Part shown: piece after piece, positions 3,675 through 23,306 of the stretch
Position numbering within the stretch: the stretch's first letter is position 1
How the letters are laid out: every line of letters starts with the position of its first letter
DNA from: Allobosea sp.
GTDB lineage: Bacteria > Pseudomonadota > Alphaproteobacteria > Rhizobiales > Beijerinckiaceae
Assembly: GCF_017308075.1 (NCBI RefSeq)
Contig: NZ_JAFKFX010000026.1
Span: 216,900-280,899 of the forward strand
Length of the DNA stretch: 64,000 nucleotides
Direction: 5' to 3'
Notes under the pieces: model-generated
What the model saw: the letters and a program-made list of their open reading frames with translations, nothing else
Told to the model about the DNA's origin: nothing
Database searches by the model: none
Position numbers and translations under genes: made by a program

Positions 3675-3694
3675 GCGGAGCGGGATCGGTCTCG

Positions 3695-4900
3695 ATGCAG
3701 TATCAGAGCACGCGCGCCGGGCTGATCAAGCCCTCGCCCTCCATGGCGATCTCGATCGAGGCAAGGCGGATGACGGCGGCCGGCGTTCCGGTCGTCGATC
3801 TCAGCCTGGGCGAGCCCGATTTCGCGACGCCGCCGCATGTTCTCGCGGCGGCAGCCGCGGCGATGCGGCGTGGTGAGACGCGCTACACTGCAGCCGACGG
3901 CACGCCCGAGCTGAAGGACGCGATCGTCCTGAAGTTCAGCCGCGAGAACGGGCTTTCTTTCCAGCGTGGCGAGGTGACCGCCGCCAATGGCGCCAAGCAG
4001 ATCATCTTCAATGCGCTGCTGGCGACGCTGGAGCCGGGCGACGAGGTGCTGGTGCCGGCGCCTTACTGGGTCTCCTATACCGACATGGTGCTGCTGCTCG
4101 GCGGCGAGCCCAAGGTGCTGCCTTGCCCGGTCGAGGACGATTTCAAGCTGACGCCGGAGGCGCTCGACCGGGCCCTGACCAAGAAGACCCGCTGGGTGAT
4201 GTTCAACGCGCCGAACAATCCCTGCGGCGCCGCCTATAGCCGCGAGGAGCTCGCCGCGCTCGGCGCGGTGCTGGCGCGGCATCCGCAGGTGCTCGTCATG
4301 TCCGACGAGATCTACGAGCACATCAACTACACGCAGACGCCGTTCTGCTCCTTCCTGACCGCCTGCCCCGAGCTGCGCGAGCGGCTGCTCATCGTCAACG
4401 GCGTCTCCAAGACCTATGCGATGACCGGCTGGCGCATCGGCTACGCCGCGGGTCCGGCGCCGCTGATCGCCACCATGGCCAAGATCCAGTCGCAGAGCAC
4501 CTCGAACCCCTGCTCGATCGCCCAGGCGGCGGCCGTGGCGGCGCTGACCGGGCCGCAGGACTTCGTGGCGCAGGCGGTCGGGGAATACCGCGCGCGCAAG
4601 GATCTCGTCACCGAGGGGCTGAACGCGATCGCCGGCCTGAAGACGCGTTCGCCGGAAGGCGCCTTCTATGCCTATCCGGAATGCTCGGCCCTGCTCGGCC
4701 GGCGCACGCCGGCCGGCAAGGTCATCGCCGACGACACCGATCTCGTCTCCTATCTGCTGAGCGAGGGTCATGTCGCCGTGGTCCAGGGCTCGGCCTATGG
4801 GCTGGAGCCCTATTTCCGGGTGTCTTTCGCGACCTCGCGCGAGCAGCTGACGACCGCGATCGAGCGCATAGGCGACGCCGTGAAACGGCTGGAGCCCTGA
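3695..4900 (+). CDS. class I/II PLP-dependent aminotransferase (AspAT-like)
   Basis: Fold-type I pyridoxal-phosphate aminotransferase of 401 residues, closest in style to the aspartate aminotransferase I-gamma group. Visible motifs are LGEPDF near the N-terminus, the NAPNNPCGA segment, SDEIYEHI (the PLP-pyridine-N aspartate), and NGVSKTYAMTGWRIGYAAG, whose lysine should form the Schiff base. It probably moves an amino group between an acidic or neutral amino acid and a 2-oxo acid in the cytosol. It lies 20 bp after hyuB, which suggests it processes the product of that enzyme pair. Substrate specificity cannot be assigned. Confidence 0.85.
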   Translation: MQYQSTRAGLIKPSPSMAISIEARRMTAAGVPVVDLSLGEPDFATPPHVLAAAAAAMRRGETRYTAADGTPELKDAIVLKFSRENGLSFQRGEVTAANGAKQIIFNALLATLEPGDEVLVPAPYWVSYTDMVLLLGGEPKVLPCPVEDDFKLTPEALDRALTKKTRWVMFNAPNNPCGAAYSREELAALGAVLARHPQVLVMSDEIYEHINYTQTPFCSFLTACPELRERLLIVNGVSKTYAMTGWRIGYAAGPAPLIATMAKIQSQSTSNPCSIAQAAAVAALTGPQDFVAQAVGEYRARKDLVTEGLNAIAGLKTRSPEGAFYAYPECSALLGRRTPAGKVIADDTDLVSYLLSEGHVAVVQGSAYGLEPYFRVSFATSREQLTTAIERIGDAVKRLEP

Positions 4901-5052: not shown

Positions 5053-5511
5053 ATGTCGGGGTCCGACCCTTCCCACGCCATCGCGGCCGAGCCCGAAGCG
5101 GAGAGCTACGACCTCTCCGAACAGGTCGGCTTCATCCTGCGCCAGGCGATCCAGCGCCATGTCTCGCTGTTCAACGAGATCATGGGGCCGGAACTGACGC
5201 CGACGCAGTGGGCGGTGCTGTCGCGGCTCTATCTCGAAGGCGGCAGCTCGCAGAATCTGCTCGGGCGCCAGACGGCGATGGACGCGGCGACGATCAAGGG
5301 CGTGGTCGACCGGCTGATCAAGCGCAAGCTGGTGCACACCACTGCCGACCCCGATGACGGGCGGCGCGTCATCGTGCAGCTGACCGAGGCCGGCCGGGCC
5401 TATACCCGCGAATTGATGCCGAAGGCCGAGACCGTCACCAAGGTGACGCTGGCGCCGCTGGCGACGAGCCAGCGCACGACGCTGCTCTCGCTGCTTAAGC
5501 AGTTGCGCTGA
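5053..5511 (+). CDS. MarR family transcriptional regulator
   Basis: Winged-helix regulator of 152 residues with the MarR architecture: an N-terminal dimerisation helix, TPTQWAVLSRLYLEG, the recognition region GRQTAMDAATIKGVVDRLIKRKLV, and the wing TADPDDGRRVIVQLTEAG. The ATG at 5053 follows an AAGGGG ribosome site. It is convergent with the phosphorylase/kinase fusion (20 bp apart). MarR-type regulators (NicR, BpsR) control nicotinate degradation in pseudomonads and Bordetella and respond to 6-hydroxynicotinate. That makes this gene the best in-window candidate for the cluster regulator, although the RTTYGTRTACRAAY palindromes found downstream would also suit a GntR protein encoded elsewhere. 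Confidence 0.88.
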   Translation: MSGSDPSHAIAAEPEAESYDLSEQVGFILRQAIQRHVSLFNEIMGPELTPTQWAVLSRLYLEGGSSQNLLGRQTAMDAATIKGVVDRLIKRKLVHTTADPDDGRRVIVQLTEAGRAYTRELMPKAETVTKVTLAPLATSQRTTLLSLLKQLR

Positions 5512-5530: not shown

Positions 5531-7573
5531 CTATCTGATCACGAAGCAGGCGCTCTGCGCCGCCAGCGCCCGTGCCTCCTCGAGATCGCTCGAGGCGCTG
5601 GCATGGATCGCAAAGAGCGGATCGCCGATCGCGACGCTGTCGCCGACGCTGCGGCGGAGATCGATGCCGGCGGCCTTGTCGAAAGGCGCGCCGGCGCGCC
5701 GGGCAATGCCGGCGACGGCCCAGCCATCGATCTCGGTGACCGTGCCGGCCTGCTCGGCGCGAACGGTATGGACCAGCAGCCCCGGCATCACCGGCGGCTC
5801 GCGGCGTCCCTGCGCCGTGACGATGCGCTCGAAGGCCGACCGCGCCGCGCCCGAGCGCAGCAATTCTTCGGCGCGCGCGCGTCCGGCCTCGACCGAACGC
5901 AGCGCCGGGTCCCAGGCCAGGATGCGGCCGGCGAAGAACAGCGCCTTGGCGACGAGATCGGCGGGGGCCTGCGGGTCGTTGTCGAGCGCCCAGGCGACGT
6001 CGCGGCATTCCAGCGCCGGGCCGATGCCGCGCCCGATCGGCCGGGTGCCATCGGTCGGGAAGGCCTCGACGACGAGGCCGAGCCCGCGCCCGACCGTCTC
6101 GAACAGGGCGGCGAGATCGGCGGCCTCGTCCTGCGATTTAAGCTTGGCGCGCGGGCCATAGGGCAGGTCGACGATCACATGGGTCGAGCCGGCCGTCTTC
6201 TTCTTCGACAGGATCGAGGCGACGGACCAGCGATTGGAATCGATGCCGAGCGGCCGTGTGATCGCGTTCATCACGTCGTCGACGACGGAATGGTTCAGCC
6301 GGCCGTTCCAGGCGATGCAGGCGCGGGCTTTCTCGACGCAGGCGCGCAGTTCCGCCGGGGTGAGCTCGACATCGGCGAGCGCCTCCATCGCATCGGCCGT
6401 GCCGGCGGCCGAGGTGATGGCGCGCGACGAGGTCTTCGGCATCAGGAAGGCGCCATGGGCGGCGATGATCGGCACCACGATCAGCGTGATCCGGCTGCCG
6501 GGAATGCCGCCCATCGAATGCTTGTCGACAACGATCTTGTCGGACCAGCTGATCTGCTGGGCGAAACGGGTGCGGACGCGGGCGAGCGAGACGACCTCGT
6601 CATCGCTGAGCTTCTGCGTCGCCGCGACGAGGAAGGCCGCGACCTCGCCATCGGGATAGCGGGATTCGACGATGTCGCGGATCAGCGTGTGATACTGCGC
6701 CTCCGAGAGCGCCCCGCCCTGGATCTTGCGAGTCAGTGCGGCGCGGCTTTCCGGCGAGGGTGTACGCCGGATCGAGACCTCAGTGCCCTCGGCCAGGCCG
6801 AGCTCGGCAAAGGCCTCGCTGGACAGGCCGATCTCGTCGGGGGCGAGCGCGGCGGGCAGGTCCGCGACCTGGATGTCGGAGCGGATGCTGGCGCCGGCGC
6901 CGGTGATCTCGATCCGACCCGGCCCGAGATAGTCGAAACCGTTGACGAGCTCGCCCTTGGCCGGGAGCCAGGCGCAATGGGCCCGCCCGGCGAAGACCGG
7001 CAGGCGGCGCAGGCGCAAGGTGTTGGCGGCCGATTCGACTGCGGCGACGAAGCGCTCGATCCCGGTTTCCGGGCTCTGATCATTGCAGACGGTGACCGTG
7101 CGGATGCCGTCCGGCCAGGGCTCGACCTTGCGGGCGAGCCTGTCGCCTATGGCGTTGCCCTGCTCGCGGCCGCGTCCGGCGATGCGGGCCGCCAGGATCT
7201 CGGCCGGTGCCGTGACCTCGACGATGACGAAACGCGGCAGCAGCGCCGCCAGTTCGGCGATGACGGCGCGCGAGCCATTGGCGATGACGTGGCGGCCGTT
7301 CTCGATCGCGCCCAGCAGGCTACGGGGCAGGCCATAGCGCAGGCCATGGGCGCTCCAGCCGATGAGGAAATCGCCTGCGGCCTCGCGTGCCGCGAATTCG
7401 GCATCCGTCGCCGCCTCATGCGCCTCGCCGGGCGAGCCGGCGGGGCGGGTGATGACGCGCCTGGCGAAGACATAGCGCCCGGTTGGCTCCAGGACCTGCC
7501 TGGCGCCGTCGATCAAGGTGTCCTTGCCGCCGCCGCTGGGGCCGACGACAAAGAAGAACGTTCCCGGGCGCAT
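5531..7573 (-). CDS. fusion: PhnN-like ribose 1,5-bisphosphokinase + AMP-phosphorylase-type (thymidine phosphorylase family) enzyme
   Basis: 680-residue two-enzyme fusion. Residues 1-185 are a PhnN/guanylate-kinase-like domain with the P-loop GPSGGGKDT (11-19), expected to make PRPP from ribose 1,5-bisphosphate and ATP. Residues about 188-272 match the extra N-terminal domain of archaeal AMP phosphorylases. From about 280 on is the phosphorylase core, with DKHSMGGIPGSR (350-361), TSSRAITSAAGTAD (381-394) and a C-terminal barrel-sandwich region. That family converts a nucleoside 5'-monophosphate and phosphate to base and ribose 1,5-bisphosphate, exactly the kinase domain's substrate. The start at 7573 is chosen because the P-loop domain begins there; upstream codons lie in the nadC-like gene. 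That gene ends 7 bp before, so the two should be one transcript under the palindrome at 8488. Confidence 0.88.
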   Translation of the reverse strand: MRPGTFFFVVGPSGGGKDTLIDGARQVLEPTGRYVFARRVITRPAGSPGEAHEAATDAEFAAREAAGDFLIGWSAHGLRYGLPRSLLGAIENGRHVIANGSRAVIAELAALLPRFVIVEVTAPAEILAARIAGRGREQGNAIGDRLARKVEPWPDGIRTVTVCNDQSPETGIERFVAAVESAANTLRLRRLPVFAGRAHCAWLPAKGELVNGFDYLGPGRIEITGAGASIRSDIQVADLPAALAPDEIGLSSEAFAELGLAEGTEVSIRRTPSPESRAALTRKIQGGALSEAQYHTLIRDIVESRYPDGEVAAFLVAATQKLSDDEVVSLARVRTRFAQQISWSDKIVVDKHSMGGIPGSRITLIVVPIIAAHGAFLMPKTSSRAITSAAGTADAMEALADVELTPAELRACVEKARACIAWNGRLNHSVVDDVMNAITRPLGIDSNRWSVASILSKKKTAGSTHVIVDLPYGPRAKLKSQDEAADLAALFETVGRGLGLVVEAFPTDGTRPIGRGIGPALECRDVAWALDNDPQAPADLVAKALFFAGRILAWDPALRSVEAGRARAEELLRSGAARSAFERIVTAQGRREPPVMPGLLVHTVRAEQAGTVTEIDGWAVAGIARRAGAPFDKAAGIDLRRSVGDSVAIGDPLFAIHASASSDLEEARALAAQSACFVIR

Positions 7574-7580
7574 GGTCTGA

Positions 7581-8414
7581 TCAGGCTTCGTCGAGGCCGA
7601 TGTCGACGGCGGGTGCCGACTGGGTGATCTTGCTGGTCGAGATATAGTCGACGCCGGTCTGGGCGATCGGACCGATCGTGTCGATGCGGATGCCACCGGA
7701 GGCCTCGACCTTGGCGCGGCCGGCGATCAGCCCGACCGCCTTGGTCATGTCGGCGACCGACATGTTGTCGAGCATGATCACATCGGCGCCGGCTTTGACG
7801 GCCTCCTCGACCTGTTCGAGCCGGTCGCATTCGACCTCGAGCTTGGTCAGCACCGGCAGCGTCTTGCGGGCGCGCTCGACGGCGGCGGTGATGCTGCCGC
7901 ACACGGCGATATGATTGTCCTTGATCATCACGCCGTTATCGAGGCCGAGGCGATGATTGAGGCCGCCGCCGCAGGTCACGGCATGCTTCTCCATCATGCG
8001 CAGGCCGGGCGTGGTCTTGCGGGTGTCGATCAGCCGCGCCTTGGTGCCGGCGATGGCGGCGACATAGCGCGCGGTCTCGTTGGCGATGCCCGAAAGGCGC
8101 TGGGCGATGTTGAGCGCGGTGCGCTCGGCGGTCAGCACGCTGCGCGCGGCGCCTTCGATCTCCATCAGGATGGCGCCCTTCTCGACCTTGTCGCCATCCT
8201 TGACCAGCAGCTTCACCTTGAGCTCGGGATCGTAGCGCTTGAAGACACGGGCGGCGACCTCGATGCCGGCGACGATCATCGGCTCGCGGGCGTTCATGTG
8301 GAACTTACCGGTCTCGTCCGGCTCGATCATGACCTGCACGGTCAGGTCGCAGGCGCCGATATCCTCGGTCAGCCAGAGATCGATCAGGCGATCCGTCGCA
8401 AAGCTGTCGTACAT
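7581..8414 (-). CDS. nadC: carboxylating nicotinate-nucleotide diphosphorylase (quinolinate phosphoribosyltransferase)
   Basis: 277-residue enzyme of the NadC family: quinolinate + PRPP gives nicotinate mononucleotide, CO2 and PPi. Motifs seen: TEDIGACDLT near the N-terminus, TAERTALNIAQRLSGIA, the basic RKTTPGLRMMEKHAV, GGGLNHRLGLDNGVMIKDNH, and the PRPP-binding barrel end KVEASGGI. It is the first gene of a two-gene minus-strand unit with the kinase/phosphorylase fusion. No nadA or nadB is near, and a cluster palindrome lies 74 bp upstream, so it appears to be a catabolic paralogue co-regulated with nicotinate degradation, not the housekeeping NAD gene. A ModD-like relative is a weaker alternative. 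Confidence 0.88.
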   Translation of the reverse strand: MYDSFATDRLIDLWLTEDIGACDLTVQVMIEPDETGKFHMNAREPMIVAGIEVAARVFKRYDPELKVKLLVKDGDKVEKGAILMEIEGAARSVLTAERTALNIAQRLSGIANETARYVAAIAGTKARLIDTRKTTPGLRMMEKHAVTCGGGLNHRLGLDNGVMIKDNHIAVCGSITAAVERARKTLPVLTKLEVECDRLEQVEEAVKAGADVIMLDNMSVADMTKAVGLIAGRAKVEASGGIRIDTIGPIAQTGVDYISTSKITQSAPAVDIGLDEA

Positions 8415-8487
8415 CGAAACCCCTCCTCGGGCGTGATCGCCTTGACCTTTTCCCGCGGAATCGGTCGGCCGATCCGAAGGTAAATTT

Positions 8488-8501
8488 ATTTGTATACGAA
8501 T
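8488..8501. promoter_or_regulatory. cluster operator 1 (GTATAC palindrome) before nadC
   Basis: ATTTGTATACGAAT, a 14-bp palindrome with one mismatched pair, 74 bp upstream of the nadC-like start. It belongs to a set of six similar sites in this window (consensus about RTTYGTRTACRAAY) placed before every unit of the pyridine-carboxylate region. Confidence 0.65.
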
Positions 8502-8718
8502 AATAACAGTCGATTTTTCGGGCTGTCAATCAGAGCTGGATAGCGGCAAGCGGGCCGCCTGTCTCGCCGGGTGCCGGGCTTTTGGCTCATCGCGCGAGCA
8601 AGCGAAGAAAACCCAGGCTGTGGCGGCTTTAGCAGGCCTGCGCGCTTCTGCCCGGCCCGGTGGCTGGACCCCGTCCGGGCAGAGTGCCGACTTGACAGCC
8701 GGGCAACCATGCGCCACC

Positions 8719-8738
8719 ATCATTTGTATACAAATGAT
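8719..8738. promoter_or_regulatory. cluster operator 2 (20-bp perfect palindrome) before 6-hydroxynicotinate reductase
   Basis: ATCATTTGTATACAAATGAT is a perfect 20-bp palindrome ending 29 bp before the reductase ATG. Its closeness to the start suits a repressor. It is the longest and most symmetric of the six sites. Confidence 0.72.
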
Positions 8739-8767
8739 ATGGCCGGAAGTGACGGCGAGGGTTGACG

Positions 8768-10258
8768 ATGAGCCTGGAGGAAACGGCCACGGCCACGGCC
8801 GCCGACGACAAGATTCGCTGCGATGCCTGTCCGGTCATGTGCTACATCAAGCCGGGCGCGGTCGGTGCCTGCGACCGCTATGGCAATGTCGACGGCAATC
8901 TCGTCCGGGTCGATCCGCATGTGATGCTCGACCGCACCATCGATCAGGGCGGCGAGTTGGTTTCCTTCGCCGGCCCGCGTGAATGGGATGGCGACATCCT
9001 GCACCAGCCCGGCACCTTCGTCACGGCGATCGGCGCCGGCACGACCTATCCCGACTACAAGCCCGCGCCCTTTATCGTCTCTTCCGAGGTCGACGGCGTC
9101 GACATGGTCACCGTCGTGACCGAGGGCATCTTCAGCTATTGCGGCGTCAAGGTGAAGATCGACACCGACCGCTTCCTCGGCCCGGAGACCGCGATCGTGC
9201 GCGTCGAGGGCGAGGCGGTCGGCCATGTCACTTCGGGCGAATACGGCTCACAGATGCTGTCGCTCGGCGGCGTTCACCACCTGACCGGCGGCTCGAAGAA
9301 GGAGGGCCGCGTCACCTGCGACGCGCTGCTCCAGCTCAGCAACGGCAAGGCGGTCGAGCTTACGATCGATGGCGGCGAGACCGTCATCGTCCAGGCCGGC
9401 AAGCCGCCGATCGTCAACGGCGTCGAGGAAAGCCGGATGCGCGTCGGCTGCGGCTCGGCGACGATCGGCATCTTCGCCAAGCAATGGCATGGCAAGGTCG
9501 ACGAGGTCGTGGTCGTCGACGACCACATCACCGGCGTGCTCTCGGAGCACCAGGCCGGCAAGCTGCTCGGCATGCCGGCGACGGGCCTGAAGATGAAGGG
9601 GCGGCGCTCGACGCCCGGCCGCTATTTCCAGGTCGCGCAACCCGGCACCGGCTGGGGCGGTACCAATATCAGCGATCCCCTGACCATTCTCGGGCCGTTC
9701 GATCCGAAGGTCGCCTATCCCGGCCTGCGCCTGCTGATGGTCTCGACCACCGGCGAGCACGCCGCCTATTACGAGCTCGACGAGAAGCTCGTACCGGTCG
9801 AGATGCAGATGCCGGAGCGGCTGGTCGAGCCGGTCGAGCGCATCGCCGAGAATTGCGAGCCGGCGCTTTCGACCGTGCTGTTTATCGGCGGCGCCGGCGG
9901 TTCGCTGCGGGCCGGCGTCACCGAGAATCCCGTCAGGCTGACGCGCTCGGTCAAGGACGCGCTGACCTATGTCACCTGCGGCGGCGCACCGGTCTATATC
10001 TGGCCGGGCGGCGGCATCACCTTCATGGTCGACGTCACCCGCCTGCCCGAGAACGCCTTCGGCTATGTGCCGACGCCGGCCCTGGTCGCGCCGCTCGAAT
10101 TCACCATGAAGCTCTCCGACTATCAGGAGCTCGGCGGGCATATGGACCATGTCCGGCCGCTTTCTGAGCTCAACGCCGACGGCCGGCTGAAGCTGCCGCA
10201 GCGGCTCGACAATCCCTGGCCGCTGGCGCCGGAGCGGATACGCCGCTCGCACGGCTGA
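8768..10258 (+). CDS. hnr: 6-hydroxynicotinate reductase
   Basis: 496-residue iron-sulfur flavoprotein family known from nicotinate fermentation in Eubacterium barkeri, where reduced ferredoxin converts 6-hydroxynicotinate to 1,4,5,6-tetrahydro-6-oxonicotinate. The N-terminus carries a Cx2Cx3Cx9C cluster motif (Cys 18, 21, 25, 35) able to bind [4Fe-4S]. A CGSAT stretch (228-232) resembles the flavinylation target of ApbE-type transferases. The ATG at 8768 is preferred over the TTG two codons earlier because a GAGG site is 8 bp upstream. The UPF0280 gene follows after 3 bp, then two AA_synth genes: one operon. Ferredoxin and its reductase are encoded at 18096-19258 and could supply electrons. 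Confidence 0.85.
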   Translation: MSLEETATATAADDKIRCDACPVMCYIKPGAVGACDRYGNVDGNLVRVDPHVMLDRTIDQGGELVSFAGPREWDGDILHQPGTFVTAIGAGTTYPDYKPAPFIVSSEVDGVDMVTVVTEGIFSYCGVKVKIDTDRFLGPETAIVRVEGEAVGHVTSGEYGSQMLSLGGVHHLTGGSKKEGRVTCDALLQLSNGKAVELTIDGGETVIVQAGKPPIVNGVEESRMRVGCGSATIGIFAKQWHGKVDEVVVVDDHITGVLSEHQAGKLLGMPATGLKMKGRRSTPGRYFQVAQPGTGWGGTNISDPLTILGPFDPKVAYPGLRLLMVSTTGEHAAYYELDEKLVPVEMQMPERLVEPVERIAENCEPALSTVLFIGGAGGSLRAGVTENPVRLTRSVKDALTYVTCGGAPVYIWPGGGITFMVDVTRLPENAFGYVPTPALVAPLEFTMKLSDYQELGGHMDHVRPLSELNADGRLKLPQRLDNPWPLAPERIRRSHG

Positions 10259-12433: not shown

Positions 12434-15400
12434 TCAGCGTCCGGCTTTCCGCGCCTTCGTGACCGCCTCTTCAATCCCCTCCCAGCCCGGCTTCCCCCGG
12501 GCGAAGCGGCCGCGCAGATAGCCGGCGAGCTCGGCGATCTGGCGGTCGTCGAGCGCCGTCGCGAAGGAGGGCATCGAGCCGATGCCATGCTGGCCGCCTT
12601 CCAGCAGCATGTTGACGAGATTGGTCGGCGTCGCGGCATGGAGCTTCGAGGACAGGCCGAGCGCCGGCCCGGCATTGACCAGCGCCGCCGTGCGACCGGG
12701 CTCGTGGCAGGCGGCGCAGGCGCCCTGATAGAGGCGTGCGACCGGCGAGGTCGCGGGATTTGCCGCGGCGCTGGTGGCGAGCTCGATCCGGCTGGCGCGG
12801 GCTTCGATCTCGGCGTCCGGCAGCGGCTCGCTGAGTGAGGCGAGATAGCTCGCCATCGCCTTGATATCGGCATCCGGCAGCTCTTTGAGCTCCGCGATCA
12901 CCGGCGCCATCGGCCCGGCTGCGGCGCCGTGATGCTGCGAGGTTCCGGTGCGCAGATAAGCGTAGAGTTCGGCCTCGCTCCAGGGTAGCGGCCCGGCCGA
13001 GATCCTGGTCAGGGCCGGCGCCTCCCAGCCCTCGGCCTCGCCACCGGAAAGATAGGCGCGGCCGCCGCGCTCGGCGCCGAGCGCGTTGCGCGGCGTGTGG
13101 CAGGCGCCGCAATGGCCGAGCCCGTCGACGAGATAGCGGCCGCGATTCCACTCGTCCGAGCGGGCTGGTTCCGGCTTGAGCTCGCCCTGCGGCCGGAACA
13201 GCAGGTTCCAACCGGCTAACAGCGGGCGCAGATTGACGGGGAAGACCATCCGGCTCGGCTGGTTCTCCTGCCTGACCGCCGGCTGCGACATCAGGAAGGC
13301 GTAGAGCGCCTGGAGGTCGGCCTCGCTGGTTTTCGCGTAGCTCGCATAGGGGAAGGCCGGGTAGAGATGGCGGCCGTCGCGGTGGATGCCGGCGCGCATC
13401 GCCCGCTCGAAGGCCGGATAGGACCAGTTGCCGATGCCGGTTTCCGGATCGGGTGTGATGTTGGTGGTCATCACCATGCCGAAAGGCGTCTCGAGCGCGA
13501 GACCGCCGGCATAGGGCACGCCGTCCTTCACCGTATGGCAGACGGCGCAGGCGCCGAGCGCCGCGAGCTGGCGGCCTCTCTCGATCGTCGCCGCCGACCA
13601 GGTCGCGGGATCGGGCCGGGCGATCGGAGCGATCGACGGCGCGAGCGCGAAGGAGGCGGCGGCGAAGGTCGCTGCACCGGCAAAGGCGGCGCCGAGCTTG
13701 CTCCACAGGCCGAAGCGGCGGGATTTGGCGGAAAGCTGCGGCGCGGCCGGTGCTGACGGCGGTAAGCGCCCGAGGCCGGCGAGCACGCGCTCGGGCGTCA
13801 GCGGCAATTCGCGAAAGCGCACGCCGGTCGCGTCAAAGACGGCGTTGACGATGGCGGCGGCGCTGGGGACGGAAGCCGACTCGCCGGCGCCGAGTGGCGC
13901 CTCGTGCTGCTTGTCGAGGAGCAGCACGTCGATCGCCGGCAGTTCCGGGAAGGTCAGGACGGGGTAGGCGCCCCAGTCGCGGGCGGCGACGGCGGTGGTC
14001 TGCGAGAAGCTCACCTCCTCGCGCAGCACACGACTGGTCGACTGCAGGACATTGCCATGGACCTGATGGGTGACGCCGGCTGGGTTGACGACCATGCCGG
14101 TGTCCTGGCCGACGGTGACGCGGCTGACCGTGACCTCGCCGGTCGTGCGGTTGACCGCGACATCGGCGACCCAGGCGGCCCAGGCGGCGCCGACGCCCGG
14201 CCAGCTGCCATGGACATAGCGCGCCTGCGCGAAGCCGCGGCCGCGCAGGATCTCGCCATATTCCTCCATGCGCGGGCCGATATGCGGCTGCCAATTGGCG
14301 CGTTCGGCGGTGGCACGCGTCAGCTCGGCGGCGCGCTCGTCATTGATGTGGCGCAGGCGGAACTCGACGGGGTCGACGCCGGCCTCATGGGCGAGCTCGT
14401 CGATATAGCTCTCATGGGCGAAGACGTTGGGCATGGCCGAGACGCCGCGCAGCCAGGATGCGCGGACGATCGGCGGCATGTCATAGGCCGTCAGCCGCAT
14501 GTTCTCGTAGTCGTAGGAGGGCACCGCGGTGCGGTCGCCCATGCGCAGCGTCGCCGGCTGGTTCGGGATCCGCCCGGTCAGCAGCAGCGCGAGCGTCGGC
14601 GCCGCGTTCGACGGATACCAGGTGTGGAAGTCATAGGCCGGCAGCGAGCCGCCGGGGCCGAGGCCGCCCTTGATGTCGATCAGCTGGGCGGCGCCCTTCG
14701 GCTCCCAGAGATGTTCCTGCTCGCGGGTGAGCTGGACGCGCACCGGGGCGCCGACGGCGCGCGAGAGCAGCACCGCATCGGCGGCGACGTCGTCGGCGCA
14801 GTTGCGACCATAGCAGCCGGCGGCTTCGTGGCGGATGATGTCGATCTGCTCGCGCGGCAGGCCGGTGAGCACGGCGAGGTCGTTCTGCAGCGGAAACGGG
14901 TTCTGGCTGCCGCTCCAGACGGTGACGCCGTCGGCGCGCACATCGGCGACGGCGCAGGACGGGCCGATCGAGCCATGCATGTGGTAGGGCCAGACATAGG
15001 TGCGGTCGAGCCGCTTCTCGAGCTTGCCGAGCGCAGTTTCGACATCGCCTTCGTCGACCAGCAGGCGCGGCGTCGAGGGATGAGTGCGCAGGGCCTGGGC
15101 GACATCGGAGAGGTCCGGCGGCGTGAACGAGCGCCACTCGGCCTTCAGGGCGAGCGCCGCTTCCGCCGCCTGCTCCTCGCGCTCGGCGACGATGCCGATG
15201 AAATCGCCCTCGACGACGAGGGCGCGGATGCCGGGAATGCCGGCGAGCGAGTCGCGATCGACTGCGATCAGGCTGCGCCCGACGAAGTCGCCGGCATCCA
15301 TGCCGGAATAGGGCGGGCGGACGACACGGCCATGCAGCATGCCGGGCACGCGCACGTCATGGACATAAACGAAGCTGCCATCGACCTTGGCGGGGATGTC

Positions 15401-15997
15401 GACCCGCGCCACCGATCGGCCGATCAGCCTGTGATGGTCGATCGGCTTGAACTGCGCGCTCTCGGCCAGCGGCAGCAGCAGGCGCTCATTGGCGAGCAGC
15501 GTGTCGAGTCCGATCGCCGGGATGTCGGCCTCGCCGCGATAGAGCCGGCCGTCGCGCAGGCTGATCTCATCCTCGCTGCAGGTAAGCGCCGCGGCGGCGA
15601 GCCCGATCAGCCTTGTGCGGATCTGGGTCGCGCCGATCCGCATCGCCACCGAGGTGACCTGGATCGTCTCGCTGGCGATGGTCGCGCCCTGGTCGGGGGT
15701 ATCGGCGGTGTCACCGAGTACCATCTCGACGGCCTCGAAGGGAAAGTCGAGCTCCTCCGCCACCATCTGGGCGAGCGCGGTGCGGATGCCGGTGCCGAGA
15801 TCGACATGGCCGGAAAAGGCGAGAATGCGCCCTTCGGCCGTGAGGCAGACATGCAGGTCGAGCGCGTCTTCGGAACTGTCCCCGGCGGGCGCGCCCTTGC
15901 GCGGCGCGACGACGGCGATGATCCCGCCGCGCCGCAGCAGCGCCCGGCGGGAGAGGGGAGGCGGCGGCGCGCTGTCGTTCATCGCGCTGTGGTTCAT
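12434..15997 (-). CDS. nicB: nicotinate dehydrogenase large subunit: molybdopterin oxidoreductase fused to a three-heme cytochrome c
   Basis: 1187-residue protein of the NicB / isoquinoline-1-oxidoreductase type. The first ~750 residues are a xanthine-dehydrogenase-like molybdenum domain, preceded by an RRALLRRG twin-arginine-like leader. A hydrophobic segment near the middle joins it to a C-terminal cytochrome c part with three heme sites, CAVCH, CGACH and CAACH. With the 2Fe-2S subunit next to it, it would hydroxylate nicotinate at C6 using water and hand electrons to the cytochrome c pool, not to NAD. Its start overlaps the stop of the small subunit by 4 bp. This layout matches the aerobic Pseudomonas NicAB enzyme; another N-heterocycle is possible, but the neighbours favour nicotinate. 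Confidence 0.88.
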   Translation of the reverse strand: MNHSAMNDSAPPPPLSRRALLRRGGIIAVVAPRKGAPAGDSSEDALDLHVCLTAEGRILAFSGHVDLGTGIRTALAQMVAEELDFPFEAVEMVLGDTADTPDQGATIASETIQVTSVAMRIGATQIRTRLIGLAAAALTCSEDEISLRDGRLYRGEADIPAIGLDTLLANERLLLPLAESAQFKPIDHHRLIGRSVARVDIPAKVDGSFVYVHDVRVPGMLHGRVVRPPYSGMDAGDFVGRSLIAVDRDSLAGIPGIRALVVEGDFIGIVAEREEQAAEAALALKAEWRSFTPPDLSDVAQALRTHPSTPRLLVDEGDVETALGKLEKRLDRTYVWPYHMHGSIGPSCAVADVRADGVTVWSGSQNPFPLQNDLAVLTGLPREQIDIIRHEAAGCYGRNCADDVAADAVLLSRAVGAPVRVQLTREQEHLWEPKGAAQLIDIKGGLGPGGSLPAYDFHTWYPSNAAPTLALLLTGRIPNQPATLRMGDRTAVPSYDYENMRLTAYDMPPIVRASWLRGVSAMPNVFAHESYIDELAHEAGVDPVEFRLRHINDERAAELTRATAERANWQPHIGPRMEEYGEILRGRGFAQARYVHGSWPGVGAAWAAWVADVAVNRTTGEVTVSRVTVGQDTGMVVNPAGVTHQVHGNVLQSTSRVLREEVSFSQTTAVAARDWGAYPVLTFPELPAIDVLLLDKQHEAPLGAGESASVPSAAAIVNAVFDATGVRFRELPLTPERVLAGLGRLPPSAPAAPQLSAKSRRFGLWSKLGAAFAGAATFAAASFALAPSIAPIARPDPATWSAATIERGRQLAALGACAVCHTVKDGVPYAGGLALETPFGMVMTTNITPDPETGIGNWSYPAFERAMRAGIHRDGRHLYPAFPYASYAKTSEADLQALYAFLMSQPAVRQENQPSRMVFPVNLRPLLAGWNLLFRPQGELKPEPARSDEWNRGRYLVDGLGHCGACHTPRNALGAERGGRAYLSGGEAEGWEAPALTRISAGPLPWSEAELYAYLRTGTSQHHGAAAGPMAPVIAELKELPDADIKAMASYLASLSEPLPDAEIEARASRIELATSAAANPATSPVARLYQGACAACHEPGRTAALVNAGPALGLSSKLHAATPTNLVNMLLEGGQHGIGSMPSFATALDDRQIAELAGYLRGRFARGKPGWEGIEEAVTKARKAGR

Positions 15998-16488
15998 GGC
16001 GTGCCCGTCTCGCCGGTCCGGGCGCGCGCGACGGCGAGCATCACGGCCCTGACGATCTCGACATGGGTGCCGCAGCGGCAGAGATTATAGCGCAGCGCCT
16101 CGCGGACCTGCGCCTCGCTCGGCGCCGGGTTGACGGCCAGGAAGGCCTTGGCGGTCATGATCATGCCGTTGATGCAGTAGCCGCATTGCGCGGCCTGGGC
16201 GTCGATGAAGGCCTGCTGGACCGGATCGGGGCCCGCGCTGCCAGCGAGTCCTTCGAGCGTGACGATCTCGCGCTCTTCCGCCAGCCGGACCGGCAGGGCG
16301 CAGGCGCGGGCGGCGATGCCATCGATCAGCACGGTGCAGGCGCCGCATTCGCCGAGGCCGCAGCCGAATTTCGGGCCGTTCAGCGAAAGGTCGTTGCGCA
16401 GGAAGAAGAGCAGGGGGGTATGCGGCTCGCCCTCGACGAGGTGATCGGCGCCATTGACGCGCAGGGCGAAGCGCCGCGTCGTTCTCAT
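15994..16488 (-). CDS. nicA: nicotinate dehydrogenase small subunit, 2Fe-2S protein
   Basis: 164-residue two-cluster [2Fe-2S] subunit of molybdenum hydroxylases. The plant-type ferredoxin motif CGLGECGACTVLIDG and the second-cluster motif QCGYCINGMIM ... NLCRCGTH are complete. It passes electrons from the molybdenum site to the heme domains of the large subunit. The ATG at 16488 is chosen because the ferredoxin fold starts right after it; the open frame upstream runs into the palindrome region. The first gene of the nicAB unit, it has operator 3 centred about 66 bp upstream. Confidence 0.88.
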   Translation of the reverse strand: MRTTRRFALRVNGADHLVEGEPHTPLLFFLRNDLSLNGPKFGCGLGECGACTVLIDGIAARACALPVRLAEEREIVTLEGLAGSAGPDPVQQAFIDAQAAQCGYCINGMIMTAKAFLAVNPAPSEAQVREALRYNLCRCGTHVEIVRAVMLAVARARTGETGTP

Positions 16489-16739: not shown

Positions 16740-17936
16740 TCAGTGCTGGACGGAGGGGATCTTCTCGGCCGGCGGGGTGTTGCGGCTGATGCCGCTGCGG
16801 ACGATGCCGTCGATCACGATCATGCCGATGCCGGGCAGGTCGCCGAGCTGGATCGAGTCGAGGAAGTTCCTGCCGGCGGAATGCTGGGCCTTGTCCATGA
16901 AGACGAAATCGGCGCTGCGCCCGACCTCGATCAGCCCGCAATCGAGGCTGCGCATCCGCGCCGTGTTGCCGGTGGCGAAGCAGAAGGCCACTTCAGCCGG
17001 GACATCGCCGAGCGAGGACAGCATCGAGACCATGCGGACGATGCCGAGCGGCTGGACGCCGGAGCCGGCGGGGCCGTCGGTGCCGAGGATGACGCGCTGC
17101 AATTCGCCCATTTCGCGGGCGACGCGCAGCGTGTAGAGCGCGGCGCGCTCATTGCCGTTATGGACGAGTTCGAGGCCGCGCTTGCAGCCCTCGCAGATGC
17201 AGCGGATCTCCTTGTCGGGCAAGGCGGTATGGCCGCCATTGATATGGCCGACGACATCGGTGTCGGCCTCGAGCACCACGTCGGCACCGATCAGGCCGGA
17301 GCCGGGAATCGAGGGGCCGCCGGTGTGGATAGTCGACTGAATCCCATATTTGCGGGCCCAGGCCACCATCTGCTTGGCCCGCGCGCCGTCCTTGACGCCG
17401 CCGAGGCCGACCTCGCCGAGCAGCTTCACGCCGGCATCGGCCAGGTCCTTGAAGTCCTGCTCGACCATGCCGGGCTCGATCACCGGCGCGCCGGCATGGA
17501 TCTTGACGCCGCCGGGGCGAAAGGCGGTGAAGGCGCGCTGGGCATAGATCGCCATGGCCTTGAGCCCGACAATGTCCTTGGGCCGGCCGGGGGTGTGGAC
17601 CTCGCCGGCCGAGATCATGGTGGTGACGCCGCCATGCATGGTCGAATCGATCCAGCCGATCTGGTTCTGGCGCGGCGTCCAGTCGCCGGCGACGGGGTGG
17701 ACATGGCTGTCGATCAGGCCGGGCGAGAGCACGGTGCCGTTGGCGTCGATGACGGTGTCGGCCTGGTCGGTGTCGAGATCCTTGAAGCGGCCGACCGCGG
17801 CGATCCTGCCGCCGATGGCGACGAGCGTGTCGGCGTCCAGGATCGGGCGCTCAATGTCGCCGGAGAGCATCAAGCCGATATTCTTGATCACCAGCTTGTG
17901 GTTGGCGCCGACCGTCGCCGTCTGCAGTTCAGCCAT
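16740..17936 (-). CDS. ena: enamidase (amidohydrolase superfamily)
   Basis: 398-residue amidohydrolase resembling the enamidase of Eubacterium barkeri (about 385 residues), which hydrolyses 1,4,5,6-tetrahydro-6-oxonicotinate to 2-formylglutarate and ammonia. Metal-site motifs are GLIDSHVHP (His 78 and 80), a GEVGLGG glutamate, IHTGG, GHINGG and ILGTDGPAGSG. It would act in the cytosol on the product of 6-hydroxynicotinate reductase. The ATG at 17936 is preferred over upstream starts because the protein fold begins there and a GGGGCGG site precedes it. Operator 4 lies between it and the divergent ferredoxin gene. A different cyclic amide as substrate cannot be excluded. Confidence 0.85.
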   Translation of the reverse strand: MAELQTATVGANHKLVIKNIGLMLSGDIERPILDADTLVAIGGRIAAVGRFKDLDTDQADTVIDANGTVLSPGLIDSHVHPVAGDWTPRQNQIGWIDSTMHGGVTTMISAGEVHTPGRPKDIVGLKAMAIYAQRAFTAFRPGGVKIHAGAPVIEPGMVEQDFKDLADAGVKLLGEVGLGGVKDGARAKQMVAWARKYGIQSTIHTGGPSIPGSGLIGADVVLEADTDVVGHINGGHTALPDKEIRCICEGCKRGLELVHNGNERAALYTLRVAREMGELQRVILGTDGPAGSGVQPLGIVRMVSMLSSLGDVPAEVAFCFATGNTARMRSLDCGLIEVGRSADFVFMDKAQHSAGRNFLDSIQLGDLPGIGMIVIDGIVRSGISRNTPPAEKIPSVQH

Positions 17937-18034
17937 CTCGTTCCGCCCCGTAAGCCTTCGCCGCCTCCTGTGAGGCCTGCGATATCCTCTCCGTCCCGAT
18001 CCCGATTGACAAGTGTGATCGAAGGCGGCATATC

Positions 18035-19651: not shown

Positions 19652-20383
19652 CTAGCGATGTGTCAGCTGGCGGTTGAACAGCATCATCAGGCTGTTGCAG
19701 CTCACCGCGAAGACGGTCAGCAGGAGCGCGATCGCCATGATCGTGTCGATCTGGCCGAGATTGATGGCGCTGGTCAGAAGGAAGCCGAGACCGCGCTGCG
19801 AGGCGAACATCTCGCCGATCAGCACGCCGAGCAGGGTCAGCGAAAAGCCGAGGCGCACGCCCGAGATGATCTCCGGCAGGATCGCCGGCAGGATCACGGT
19901 GAAGGCCGATTGCGAAGGCGAAAGGCGCATCACCTGCGAGGTGCGCCGGTAGACCGGCTTCATCTGGCGGATCGCGTTCATCGAGAACAGGGTGATCGGG
20001 ATCAGCCCGTGCATCACGCCGAAGGCGATCTTGGCGGAGATGCCGAGGCCGAAGCAGAGCAGCACCAGCGGGTAGAGCACGACCTTGGGGATAGAATAGA
20101 GCGTGGTCAGGATCGGCTCGGCGACGTTGCCGGCGAGCTTGCGGACCCCGAGTACGATGCCGAGGCTGATGCCGCCGAGCAGCGAGAGGAGGAAAGCGGC
20201 GACGAAGGCCCGCATCGTTTCGCTGATGTTGAGCCAGAACTCGCCGGTGCCGAGCAGCGAGCCGAGCTTGACGACGGTCTGCAATGGCGAGGCGATGGCC
20301 GAGGAGCCGACGAGGAGATGGAAGCCCTGCCAGAGCAGGATGAAGGTCAAAAGGACGATGAGAGTGCCGGCGAGTCTGGGCAT
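19652..20383 (-). CDS. ABC transporter permease (SsuC/TauC type), distal
   Basis: 243-residue inner-membrane permease with about six transmembrane segments and the cytoplasmic EAA-like loop near SGVRLGFSLTLLGVLIGEMF. It belongs to the nitrate/sulfonate/taurine importer class (BPD_transp_1). It is the last gene of a four-gene minus-strand unit (binding protein, ATPase, permease, permease) and 9 bp from the other permease. The unit carries a pyridine-cluster operator at its promoter, so import of nicotinate, quinolinate or a related acid is the likely task. Confidence 0.88.
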   Translation of the reverse strand: MPRLAGTLIVLLTFILLWQGFHLLVGSSAIASPLQTVVKLGSLLGTGEFWLNISETMRAFVAAFLLSLLGGISLGIVLGVRKLAGNVAEPILTTLYSIPKVVLYPLVLLCFGLGISAKIAFGVMHGLIPITLFSMNAIRQMKPVYRRTSQVMRLSPSQSAFTVILPAILPEIISGVRLGFSLTLLGVLIGEMFASQRGLGFLLTSAINLGQIDTIMAIALLLTVFAVSCNSLMMLFNRQLTHR

Positions 20384-20392
20384 GGCGTCACC

Positions 20393-21139
20393 TCACCGCT
20401 GGCGGCGCGCCTGGAGGCGCCGGTCGATCATGTTGAGGATCGTGTTGACGATGGTGACGGTCACCAGCACGAGCAGGATCAGCGCGTACATGTGCCCGTT
20501 CTCGAACAGGTTGTAGGCATAGGCGATGGCGTAGCCGATCCCGGCGCCCGAGAGGATGAACTCCGAGGCGATCACTCCGATGAAGGAATAGGCGACCGAA
20601 AGCTTCACGCCGGTGAAGAGATAAGGCAGCGTCGCCGGCAGCTCGACGAGGAGCGCGGTCTTGGCCCGCGACATCCGGTAGATCTGCGCCGTCTTGCGCA
20701 GCACGCGCGGAATCCGGTCGAGCCCGTTCAGCGTCGCGGTGATCATCGAGACCACGGCGAGCAGCACGGCGATCGCGATGATCGAGGCCGAGCCGACGCC
20801 GAAGAGCGTGATGAAGATCGGATAGAAGACGAAGGTCGGGACGGCATAATAGCTCGCCAGAAGCGGCTCGAGCGCATGGCGCAGCGCCGGCAGCGAGTAG
20901 ATGATCAGGCCGGCGACGAAGCCGAGCACGATCGAGAGCGCCGTCGAGATGGCGATGTTGGTGAAGGTCGTCCGGATATCGGCCGAGAACTGGCCGGTGC
21001 GCAGGATCTCGGCGAGCTCGACCACCATCTGCGAGGGCGCCAGCATCACCATGCGGGGGATGACGCCGACCCGGCAGAGCAGCTCGACCAGGAGGATCAT
21101 CGTCGCGACGACGATCAGGCGCAGCCATTTTTCCGACAT
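20393..21139 (-). CDS. ABC transporter permease (SsuC/TauC type), proximal
   Basis: 248-residue paralogous permease with N-terminal membrane anchor, five or six hydrophobic segments, and the loop TGVKLSVAYSFIGVIASEFILS that contacts the ATPase. It lies 3 bp after the ATPase gene. Two distinct permeases in one operon imply a heterodimeric channel, which is less usual in this importer class, where one gene often supplies a homodimer. Confidence 0.88.
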   Translation of the reverse strand: MSEKWLRLIVVATMILLVELLCRVGVIPRMVMLAPSQMVVELAEILRTGQFSADIRTTFTNIAISTALSIVLGFVAGLIIYSLPALRHALEPLLASYYAVPTFVFYPIFITLFGVGSASIIAIAVLLAVVSMITATLNGLDRIPRVLRKTAQIYRMSRAKTALLVELPATLPYLFTGVKLSVAYSFIGVIASEFILSGAGIGYAIAYAYNLFENGHMYALILLVLVTVTIVNTILNMIDRRLQARRQR

Positions 21140-21142
21140 GGC

Positions 21143-21988
21143 TCAGCTCTTCCCGGCCGACATGATCTTCAGCGCCTCGACGCGCAGCTTCTCCCAGAGC
21201 CGGGCGGTGATGTCGCCGAAATGCGGGGTCGAGACCACGCGGCTGTCGCGGTCGCGCTCCCAGCCGGTTTCGACGAAGTCGATGAAGGTGCCCGGCCTGG
21301 TCGACATCACGCCGACCCGGTCGGACAGCATCGCCGCCTCGTCGAGGGCGTGGGTGATCAGCAGCACCGTGGCCGAGGTTTCGCGCCAGAGCCGCAGCAA
21401 TTCGTCGCCCATCAAGAGGCGGGTCTGCTGGTCGAGCGCGCCGAAGGGCTCGTCGAGCAGGATCAGCCTGGGCTGCATCACCAGGGTGCGGGCGATGCAG
21501 ACCCGCTGGCGCATGCCGCCGGAGAGCTGGGCCGGAAAGGAGGCCGCGAAGTCCTTCAGCCCCATGAAGCCGATGGCATAGTCGACGCGGCGCTGGATCT
21601 CGGCCGGGTCGACGCCGGCGCGCCGGAGCCCGAAGGCGACGTTGTCGCGGACATTGAGCCAGGGAAAGGAGGCGTCCTCCTGGAAGACGACGCCGACCCC
21701 GTCGGGCACGCCGTTGACCGGCTTGCCCTCGAAATGCGCCGTGCCGGCCTGCGGGGCGCTGAGCCCCGCAAGAATGTCGAGCAAGGTCGACTTGCCACAG
21801 CCCGAGGGGCCGACGACCGAGAAGAATTCGCCCTTGGCGAGATCCAGATCGATCGGTCCGAGCGCGTGCAGGGTCGACTTCGGCAGCTGGAAGATCCGCG
21901 TGACGCCGCGCAGCGTCGCATGGGCTTCAACGGGCGCCGGTTGCTGCTTGAGTGTCACGACCTTGGCGCCCGCTGCGGCCGGGTTCAT
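21143..21988 (-). CDS. ABC transporter ATP-binding protein (SsuB/TauB type)
   Basis: 281-residue ATPase with Walker A GPSGCGKST, signature LSGGMRQRV, Walker B LILLDEPFGALD and the switch histidine in LLITHAL. The ATG at 21988 overlaps the stop of the binding-protein gene (ATGA), while the longer open frame upstream is only a shadow of that gene. It energises the two permeases of this operon. Confidence 0.92.
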   Translation of the reverse strand: MNPAAAGAKVVTLKQQPAPVEAHATLRGVTRIFQLPKSTLHALGPIDLDLAKGEFFSVVGPSGCGKSTLLDILAGLSAPQAGTAHFEGKPVNGVPDGVGVVFQEDASFPWLNVRDNVAFGLRRAGVDPAEIQRRVDYAIGFMGLKDFAASFPAQLSGGMRQRVCIARTLVMQPRLILLDEPFGALDQQTRLLMGDELLRLWRETSATVLLITHALDEAAMLSDRVGVMSTRPGTFIDFVETGWERDRDSRVVSTPHFGDITARLWEKLRVEALKIMSAGKS

Positions 21989-22962
21989 TGCTTGGCCTGC
22001 AGATCGGCAGGCAGGAAGGATTTGTCGAGCACGGTCGACCAGTCGATGTCGTTCTTGACCTCGCCGATCAGCTTCAGGCCTTCGACGATACGGTTGAGCT
22101 CGGTGATGCTGAACTCGCCCTCGCTCCACATCTTCGGGCCGATCATGTTGTCGACGGCTTCCTTGGCGACTGCCGGCTCGAGCTTGTAGAGCTTCTCGAT
22201 GATCTTGGCGGTCTCGGCCGGGTCCTTGTAGATCGCCTGCACGCCGGCGCGGCGGCCCGCGATGATCGCCTTGAGCTTGTCGGGGTGCTCCTGCGCGAAT
22301 TTGCGGGTGGTGATGCCGACCGAGGTGGTCATCGGCTTCAGGATGTCGCCGGCCTTGTAGACCGTGCGGTACTTGTCCTTGCGGATGATCGAGAGCGGCT
22401 CGATCAGCACCGAGCCGGCGATCGCGCCCTGCTCGAGCATGGTCAGCGCCGGGACATAGCCGCCGGCGGCGACGCGCTGAACCTTGGCCTGGTCGATGCC
22501 CTTCTCTTTCAGGACCATCAGGAAGAGCATTTCCGAGACGGATTTCGGCGAGGTGATCGCGACCTTCTTGCCGACCAGATCCTCGACGCTCTTCACCTCG
22601 GAGTTCGGCATGGTGACCATCGAGGCCTCGGCGACGCTGCGCGTCCCGGTGTTGACGATGACGAGGTCGAGCCCCTGAGCCTTGGCGGCGAGCGCCGCGG
22701 AGACCGCGACCTCGCCATAGGGCGTCGCGCTGGCGAGGATGTTCCGGACCGTGGTGCCGCCGCCGCCGGAGCCGATGATGCCGGTGATGTCGATGCCGGC
22801 CTGCTTGAACAGCCCCTTCTCCATCGCGACCGCATAGGGTGCGCCATAGAGGCTCGCGCCCCATTGCGTCACGGAAATCTCCTCGGCGCGCACCGGCGCC
22901 TGCAGGCAAAGCATCGTGACCGCAGCAGCCGCGAACTGCCGGAAACCAAAGAAATCCGTCAT
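21985..22962 (-). CDS. ABC transporter substrate-binding protein (NMT1/SsuA-like)
   Basis: 325-residue periplasmic binding protein with a signal peptide (hydrophobic FAAAAVTMLCLQAPVRA, cleavage probably after VRA) and the two-lobe NMT1/THI5-like fold (GLFKQAGIDI, KVAITSPKSVSEML). The ATG at 22962 has a GGGAGAGAG site; an upstream frame would reach into the operator. First gene of the importer operon, operator 5 is 64 bp upstream. Co-regulation suggests a pyridine carboxylate ligand, but the family also binds sulfonates, nitrate and pyrimidine precursors. Confidence 0.88.
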   Translation of the reverse strand: MTDFFGFRQFAAAAVTMLCLQAPVRAEEISVTQWGASLYGAPYAVAMEKGLFKQAGIDITGIIGSGGGGTTVRNILASATPYGEVAVSAALAAKAQGLDLVIVNTGTRSVAEASMVTMPNSEVKSVEDLVGKKVAITSPKSVSEMLFLMVLKEKGIDQAKVQRVAAGGYVPALTMLEQGAIAGSVLIEPLSIIRKDKYRTVYKAGDILKPMTTSVGITTRKFAQEHPDKLKAIIAGRRAGVQAIYKDPAETAKIIEKLYKLEPAVAKEAVDNMIGPKMWSEGEFSITELNRIVEGLKLIGEVKNDIDWSTVLDKSFLPADLQAKQ

Positions 22963-23025
22963 GCCTCTCTCCCGATAAGGTCCATGCCTGCGATTGTTAT
23001 CGTTCCAGCATGCTGCCAAAATTTC

Positions 23026-23039
23026 ATTTGTATACAAAT
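23026..23039. promoter_or_regulatory. cluster operator 5 before the importer operon
   Basis: ATTTGTATACAAAT, a perfect 14-bp palindrome identical to the core of operator 2, 64 bp upstream of the binding-protein ATG. It links transport to the pyridine regulon. Confidence 0.68.
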
Positions 23040-23306
23040 AACGATCTCAGCATGAGGAAATCTTGTCAAGCGGGTAAGGAGCGAGAATCCGCCGGTCTGG
23101 AAGCCGAATTTGGCGGGCGTGGCCGGATGCGGCGCGAGCGGAATCTTCGCCATATCGCAGCCGATATGGTGCCAATTCAATGCTGAAAGCTCCTTTGGAT
23201 CGGCGCGGGGCGCGGCGCCGGAATCGCCGTGTGGCAACGGCGTCAGCATCGGGGGCGACGCCGCGTCTGGCAAGCCCGAATGGGGGGGCGCGGCGGAATT
23301 GATATT

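Follow-up and report, generated by a model that had tools for sequence, protein, structure and literature searches.

The gene pair described here lies in a stretch of 64,000 nucleotides from an Allobosea sp. genome (assembly GCF_017308075.1, contig NZ_JAFKFX010000026.1, positions 216,900 to 280,899), which is termed the window. The pair consists of nadC, encoding a quinolinate phosphoribosyltransferase, and a downstream gene that fuses a PhnN-like kinase to a nucleoside monophosphate (NMP) phosphorylase-type enzyme. Its parts are arranged as follows:

7581..8414, minus strand: nadC, carboxylating quinolinate phosphoribosyltransferase (TIGR00078 match)
7028..7573, minus strand: PhnN (ribose 1,5-bisphosphokinase) domain, fusion residues 1-182 (profile match)
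5531..7027, minus strand: NMP-phosphorylase-type domain, fusion residues 183-680 (NF003338/TIGR02645 family), predicted base-pocket positions altered

The nadC product scores 329.8 bits against TIGR00078 (cut-off 198.4) and thus belongs to the NadC family; 7581-8414 is the sole match to this profile in its own genome. Residues R98, R132, K133, H154, R155, K165, E195 and D216, which we take to bind substrate, are invariant in all six of the paired NadCs aligned (six of 17), and paired NadC has its motifs in common with the solved quinolinate enzymes. A spacer of 7 bp (7574-7580) separates the nadC stop from the ATG of the fusion gene (5531-7573, minus strand), which encodes 680 amino acids. Fusion residues 4-179 match TIGR02322 PhnN with 165.7 bits (cut-off 156) and retain the P-loop (GPSGGGKDT), while residues 186-675 match NF003338 with 588.9 bits (cut-off 434); TIGR02645 is also matched (448.8 bits, cut-off 434.6). 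Against TIGR03327, the AMP (adenosine monophosphate) phosphorylase family, the score is 390.7 bits, under the cut-off of 535, and therefore the fusion is not named an AMP phosphorylase here. An earlier note on this DNA had described a nadC-like gene 7 bp from a fusion of a PhnN-like and an AMP-phosphorylase-type enzyme. The nadC gene, the spacing and the PhnN half are confirmed by these matches; the second half holds at the level of the NF003338/TIGR02645 family, and its AMP phosphorylase label does not. A longer fusion frame with a GTG start at 7696 runs into nadC and is an unlikely start. The window fusion and the one in Bosea sp. WAO (locus L046) share 95% identity. An AlphaFold model of the fusion has a mean predicted local distance difference test (pLDDT) score of 73, falling below 50 at residues 424-449, the region of interest, and was not used.

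The pair has been sought in three overlapping genome samples (150 genomes at order, 385 at class and 398 at phylum level), in one contig scan and in a plasmid collection. Each genome search scored the top 2 to 12 candidates, and only some of the matches came with a locus, so that the counts are lower bounds. The fusion occurs in at least 16 genomes and on at least three plasmids, 83 of the 113 matching plasmid records lying outside the matches listed. In 17 of the 19 fusions found, nadC lies directly upstream at a spacing of a few to about 35 bases; five of these pair loci, including the window, are of the Bosea type and 12 are not. By contrast, nadC is beside an unfused phosphorylase at none of 47 loci examined (44 distinct places, flanks of up to 1.5 kb). 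In the phosphorylase tree, a single branch with a Shimodaira-Hasegawa-like approximate likelihood ratio (SH-aLRT) support of 100 separates the 19 fusions from the other sequences. The 17 paired NadCs form one clade (94/87) in a tree that used 20 of 93 background NadCs, with Alpha- and Betaproteobacteria intermixed; in a quick tree of all 93 background NadCs and 14 genome pairs, the pairs stand apart too (SH-aLRT 95). The nearest solo NadCs to the paired clade come from small genomes of the window's own family without the fusion (L222 and L242, in G042 and G147; 99/99). These groupings indicate that the two genes travel as a unit and have been passed from one lineage to another.

Four positions of the predicted base pocket distinguish the fusions from their unfused relatives. 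Residue 428 is His in 16/16 genome fusions and in 0/45 unfused rows, which have Leu, Met or Ile, and residue 436 is Asn in 16/16 fusions versus 0/45 unfused rows. Conversely, all 45 unfused rows carry Glu at 439 and Gln at 449, and none of the 16 fusions does (Thr, Asn or Val at 439; Trp, Leu or Met at 449). The pocket residues fit in the two of three plasmid fusions that were checked, the L256 fusion being outside this check. An archaeal row (L050) has both Glu439 and Gln449. Positions aligned with His85, Ser186 and Lys190 of DeoA are kept in the fusions; residue 436 aligns with Tyr168 of DeoA, and residue 439 with Arg171 or its neighbour, DeoA positions that presumably touch the base. A carboxylate-bearing base would fit a pocket from which a conserved acidic residue has been lost. 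Nicotinate mononucleotide (NaMN) is a likely substrate of the phosphorylase half, because the adjoining NadC makes NaMN, the fused kinase uses the sugar product, and the base pocket differs.

The pair also shares a putative control element with genes for nicotinate breakdown. The features concerned are the following:

8486..8503, unstranded: operator palindrome of nadC-fusion (TTATTTGTATACGAATAA; pattern match)
8720..8737, unstranded: operator palindrome of hnr (TCATTTGTATACAAATGA; pattern match)
23024..23041, unstranded: operator palindrome of an ATP-binding cassette (ABC) binding-protein gene (pattern match)
8762..10258, plus strand: hnr, 6-hydroxynicotinate reductase-like, without a Pfam or NCBIfam match
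5053..5511, plus strand: MarR-family regulator, predicted to bind the palindromes

The pattern ATTTGTATACAAAT, allowing up to three mismatches, has three matches in the window, at 8488 (nadC), 8722 (hnr, which we take to encode 6-hydroxynicotinate reductase) and 23026 (ABC binding-protein gene), against 0.02 expected; none of 100 shuffles reached three. The palindrome that the earlier note saw as common to the pair and the nicotinate genes is thus well above chance. The third site is about 15 kb from nadC, so that the ABC genes are distant yet carry the operator. A looser pattern with one mismatch finds further window sites at 16549 (before nicA), 18036 (in the gap that separates the amidohydrolase gene from the ferredoxin gene) and 23308. 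At the window's MarR gene no operator site was found (best, 5 mismatches); the MarR gene has its own site in the Bosea-type loci L047, L048 and L105, and has none in the window or L046. Of the 14 pair loci in genomes, 11 have an operator with up to two mismatches before nadC, before the transporter gene or before each of them, and in plasmid locus L255 a one-mismatch site precedes the TAXI gene. Unlinked nicotinate regions of G878, G526, G214, G126 and G501 contain one-mismatch sites, and the pair loci there have sites too; G100, whose fusion is without nadC, also has one in its unlinked nicotinate region, and that of G740 has no one-mismatch site. The operator is therefore common to hnr and nic genes in the window and in other genomes, which places the pair in a nicotinate catabolic regulon. 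A MarR-type regulator would be the protein that binds it.

The distribution of the fusion follows that of nicotinate catabolism. The hnr gene is found in 12 of 16 fusion genomes versus 68 of 385 genomes in the class sample. In that sample without the window's own genome, hnr is present in 3/3 fused versus 64/381 other genomes (Fisher p 0.005), and versus 15/55 genomes with an unfused phosphorylase (p 0.026). Three further fusion genomes have a NicC-type gene (G869, 60%; G740, 65%; G795, 100%, being the query source), so that hnr or a close NicC accompanies the fusion in 15 of 16 genomes. In G795, the pair lies inside the nic cluster, in the order nicB, MarR, SIR2-type gene, fusion, nadC, major facilitator superfamily (MFS) transporter, NicC, nicA, nicB; in G869 and G740 the nic genes lie apart from the pair. 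The condition that the earlier note set for its refutation, an occurrence of the pair mostly in genomes without nicotinate catabolism, is thus not what the search shows.

Outside the Bosea type, every pair locus (12/12) includes a transporter gene, drawn from four unrelated families:

L032, L033, L103, L104, L106, L255 (six loci): TAXI-type tripartite ATP-independent periplasmic (TAXI-TRAP) transporter
L049, L102, L256 (three loci): ABC transporter of the window type
L107, L108 (two loci): MFS transporter
L254 (one locus): TctC-type binding protein

Homologues of the window's ABC binding protein share a cluster with nadC-fusion in L049, L102 and L256. The TctC protein beside the pair of Variovorax sp. 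SRS16 (L254) matches Bug27 (2qpq) with 457 bits; a linked Bug27 relative occurs in L254 only, the window binder being of the NMT1 type. It has been reported that Bordetella Bug27 binds quinolinate with a dissociation constant (KD) of 136 nM and, for Variovorax and Jezberella, that bug27 adjoins nadC and phnN (PMC11452294). Since phnN is the only name given to the fusion in the SRS16 record, the published Variovorax phnN is probably this fusion. Quinolinate is the predicted transported substrate.

Together, these features suggest a catabolic funnel in which imported quinolinate is converted through NaMN to nicotinate while phosphoribosyl pyrophosphate (PRPP) is regenerated, a reading that we consider likely, though well short of certain. 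Quinolinate would enter through an ABC, TAXI-TRAP, MFS or TctC-type carrier, depending on the host. NadC would then combine it with PRPP to give NaMN, CO2 and pyrophosphate (PPi), the ring losing its 2-carboxylate. The phosphorylase half is predicted to cleave NaMN with phosphate (Pi), releasing nicotinate together with ribose 1,5-bisphosphate; the PhnN half would use ATP to return ribose 1,5-bisphosphate to PRPP, with release of ADP. The net reaction would be quinolinate + Pi + ATP to nicotinate + CO2 + PPi + ADP, PRPP serving as a regenerated activating group. Nicotinate would pass to the pathway of hydroxynicotinate reductase or to that of NicC, with which the pair would share its MarR-type control, and NaMN could also exit to nicotinamide adenine dinucleotide (NAD), which fits genomes in which the paired NadC is the sole source of NaMN. 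Because a pyridinium has a high-energy glycosidic bond, NaMN phosphorolysis should be downhill; the direction of flux is likewise a prediction. Directly observed are the gene order, the families, the kept motifs, the shared operator sites, the co-occurrence and the lack of a nadA match. On this basis, the pair is probably a horizontally spread module, co-controlled with vitamin B3 breakdown, that lets soil and marine bacteria convert quinolinate to nicotinate. Somewhat less firmly, though still on the favourable side, PRPP may be seen as a traceless activating group, in a module that spreads with interchangeable transporters and often with an FRG/SIR2-type protein that may act on the NAD pool.

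The PRPP cycle is what the earlier note had proposed, and it is supported in part. The genomic context, the operator sites, the absence of nadA, the transporters and the changed base pocket agree with it; two fusion genomes without nadC, and genomes in which the paired NadC must serve NAD synthesis too, do not. These and several other points weigh against it. G100 and G064, two members of a single genus, yield no nadC match genome-wide although their fusions keep the pocket residues of the others; NaMN from another source may be the substrate there. A row from Patescibacteria (L051), without the fusion, also has neither Glu439 nor Gln449, so these two residues are not fixed across the superfamily. 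No operator was found at the pair in genome loci L106, L107 and L108 or in plasmid loci L254 and L256, and the shared regulon is therefore not extended to these five; in G869 the nic cluster has a one-mismatch site and the pair has none. The sites in unlinked nicotinate regions were counted by mismatch only, without a shuffle control, and the hnr association comes from small numbers and few independent genera, with genome size uncontrolled. G072 (92% complete) has neither hnr nor a close NicC. In G126, G795 and G876, which have nadA, the paired nadC is the only nadC, and the paired NadC there also serves NAD synthesis and is not purely catabolic. G126, G072, G214 and G526 have no match to PF04095 (the pncB family), and G072 and G526, with neither PF04095 nor nadA, need NaMN for NAD. 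Finally, the published reading of NAD salvage and PRPP supply fits several genomes.

The fusions of G100 and G064 (L035 and L036) are placed near cytochrome bc1-like genes. In G072, the pair is adjoined by pieces of AA_synth and amidohydrolase homologues; likewise, L033:12947-14722, downstream of the fusion, holds AA_synth pieces and a broken amidohydrolase homologue, which are perhaps the remains of an hnr-type cluster.

The strongest alternative, which we nevertheless judge unlikely, is quinolinate salvage for NAD, in which NadC makes NaMN from imported quinolinate and the fusion merely supplies PRPP, by breaking common nucleotides such as AMP or cytidine monophosphate (CMP) down to ribose 1,5-bisphosphate. 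This is close to the reading of nadC-phnN-bug27 by Sorci et al. 2024, and Bordetella is described there as using NadC without NadAB in this way (PMC11452294). The window's own genome, with one nadC and no match to nadA or 3-hydroxyanthranilate dioxygenase, has the arrangement expected of quinolinate salvage, namely NadC without NadA. A nadA match is absent in 9 of 14 pair genomes and present in five; six of the nine also have no TIGR03037 match over the cut-off, in a search of unproven sensitivity, whose control set matched 1 of 14 genomes at a sub-cut-off score and which found four clear genes in the fusion set. The lack of PF04095 in G072 and G526 favours salvage as well. On the other hand, a PF04095 (PncB-type) gene is present in 10 of 14 pair genomes, which could therefore make NAD from nicotinate, and a second nadC lies near nadA in G501 and G740; both are left unexplained by salvage, as are the operator shared with nicotinate catabolism, the position inside nic clusters of two different pathways (the window and G795) and the changed base-pocket positions. 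G878 has a second, divergent nadC. If NaMN is not a substrate of the phosphorylase, the module is a variant of quinolinate salvage.

A still less probable alternative is an overflow valve, in which the fusion, as a NaMN phosphorylase, would trim NaMN and NAD during growth on nicotinate or quinolinate and recover PRPP, quinolinate catabolism being secondary. It would suit G100 and G064, which have the fusion and hnr and no nadC, and the FRG- or SIR2_2-domain genes that occur within about 3.5 kb, often adjacent, at 8 of the 12 loci in which the pair is not of the Bosea type, a count without a background rate. Yet a valve needs neither an adjoining nadC, found with 17 of 19 fusions, nor the clustered transporter of all 12 of these loci. 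The neighbouring genes are:

FRG-domain genes: L049:8012-8926, L104:4012-4893, L106:6595-7497, L108:12328-13104, L254:12484-13293, L256:13324-14088
SIR2_2-domain genes: L103:7622-8824, L107:7782-8984

In L107, the SIR2-type gene overlaps the fusion end, and similarity searches found no FRG/SIR2-type gene at the 47 unfused-phosphorylase loci. Four FRG proteins tested match the PADLOC candidate PDC-S15. Frg has been described as a possible NADase of the ADP-ribosyltransferase superfamily, and sirtuin domains are counted among NAD-consuming domains (PMC9503650). These neighbours could target the NAD pool, or they could serve in defence.

It is very improbable that NadC and the phosphorylase act on another pyridine, such as another dicarboxylate, or on separate substrates joined by PRPP only: the ligands of the TAXI and NMT1-type binders are not readable from their closest solved relatives, but the motif residues seen in solved quinolinate enzymes are retained in NadC, and one of the carrier types is related to Bug27. 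Three other roles were rejected: a part for the PhnN half in phosphonate use, as a second PhnN-like match is found some 103 kb off on this contig and no phosphonate gene is among the annotated window genes; anti-phage defence, as the PADLOC matches are very weak (NadC, E 0.0035; fusion, E 0.001); and a housekeeping cluster for de novo NAD synthesis, as the genome has no nadA match.

Besides hnr and the MarR gene, the window contains the following genes related to the proposed funnel:

12434..15997, minus strand: nicB-like, with molybdopterin and cytochrome c domains
15994..16470, minus strand: nicA-like, 2Fe-2S
16740..18008, minus strand: amidohydrolase gene, start uncertain
19652..21128, minus strand: ABC permease region of two genes (19652-20383, BPD_transp_1 match)
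21143..21988, minus strand: ABC ATPase of the window transporter
21985..22962, minus strand: ABC substrate-binding protein, SsuA/NMT1 type, predicted quinolinate receptor

Divergent from nadC, the order is hnr, a UPF0280-type gene and two AA_synth genes, followed by the nicB-like, nicA-like and amidohydrolase genes; then come a ferredoxin gene, a ferredoxin-reductase-like gene and the ABC transporter. We presume that the amidohydrolase is likely the enamidase of the hnr route. The permease frame 20388-21128 as drawn has no family match and is possibly the wrong frame. Preceding the MarR gene, positions 27-4900 hold two large genes that by eye resemble those of hydantoinase A/B, together with an aminotransferase gene (3695-4900).

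Some loci bear on the relatives of the fusion. Separate PhnN-like genes lie near unfused phosphorylases at 2 of the 47 unfused loci (L065:789-1343 and L066:3125-3658) and are perhaps an unfused form of the kinase-phosphorylase pairing, and several unfused loci, read by eye, have a PRPP-synthetase-like gene beside the phosphorylase. At L032:14981-17883, in a genome that also has the fusion, a gene for a metallo-beta-lactamase-fold hydrolase overlaps the start of an unfused phosphorylase; several plasmid records likewise give hydrolase and phosphorylase product names under one match. The overlap in L032 possibly serves the breakdown of RNA-derived nucleotides. In the fusion at L108:9075-10880 (G740), the phosphorylase half seems to have a largely missing N-terminal domain (profile positions 184-271 unmatched).

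Removal of the 2-carboxylate of a pyridine is chemically hard, and nucleotide formation solves this problem in NAD synthesis. If the proposed funnel is correct, the same nucleotide trick is used catalytically for breakdown, which would be a new metabolic logic, and quinolinate, a product of tryptophan breakdown, becomes a growth substrate through nicotinate. It would also give a function to a fusion that records call PhnN, after phosphonate metabolism, and help to explain NadCs in genomes without nadA. The earlier note knew of no pathway of this kind, and searches of open-access literature listed no route from quinolinate to nicotinate through NaMN; to our knowledge, there is no other catabolic decarboxylation by a nucleotide cycle.

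Several known systems resemble parts of the proposed funnel. Archaeal AMP phosphorylase (4ga4-4ga6) is of the same family as the phosphorylase half and likely gives the same product, ribose 1,5-bisphosphate, which in archaea feeds an isomerase and RuBisCO in the pentose bisphosphate pathway; the fusion differs in falling below the TIGR03327 cut-off, in being joined to PhnN and in its base-pocket residues. The nearest relatives of this half are the unfused bacterial NF003338-type phosphorylases, from which it differs in its neighbouring nadC and in lacking their invariant Glu439 and Gln449. Nicotinate catabolism through 6-hydroxynicotinate reductase or NicC is the downstream route present in nearly all fusion genomes, although both routes start at nicotinate and not at quinolinate. 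In the quinolinate salvage of Bordetella (Bug69/Bug27), NadC is likewise apart from NadAB and a clustered TctC protein binds quinolinate (PMC11452294). Salvage in Bordetella is under NadQ control. In the nadC-phnN-bug27 set of Variovorax and Jezberella, nadC is next to phnN, which in SRS16 is this fusion; the difference is that phnN is taken there as a supplier of PRPP for NAD, in a main text that uses neither "phosphorylase" nor "catabol-" (PMC11452294). The cycle proposed here would be new in its logic, although each of its enzyme families is already known.

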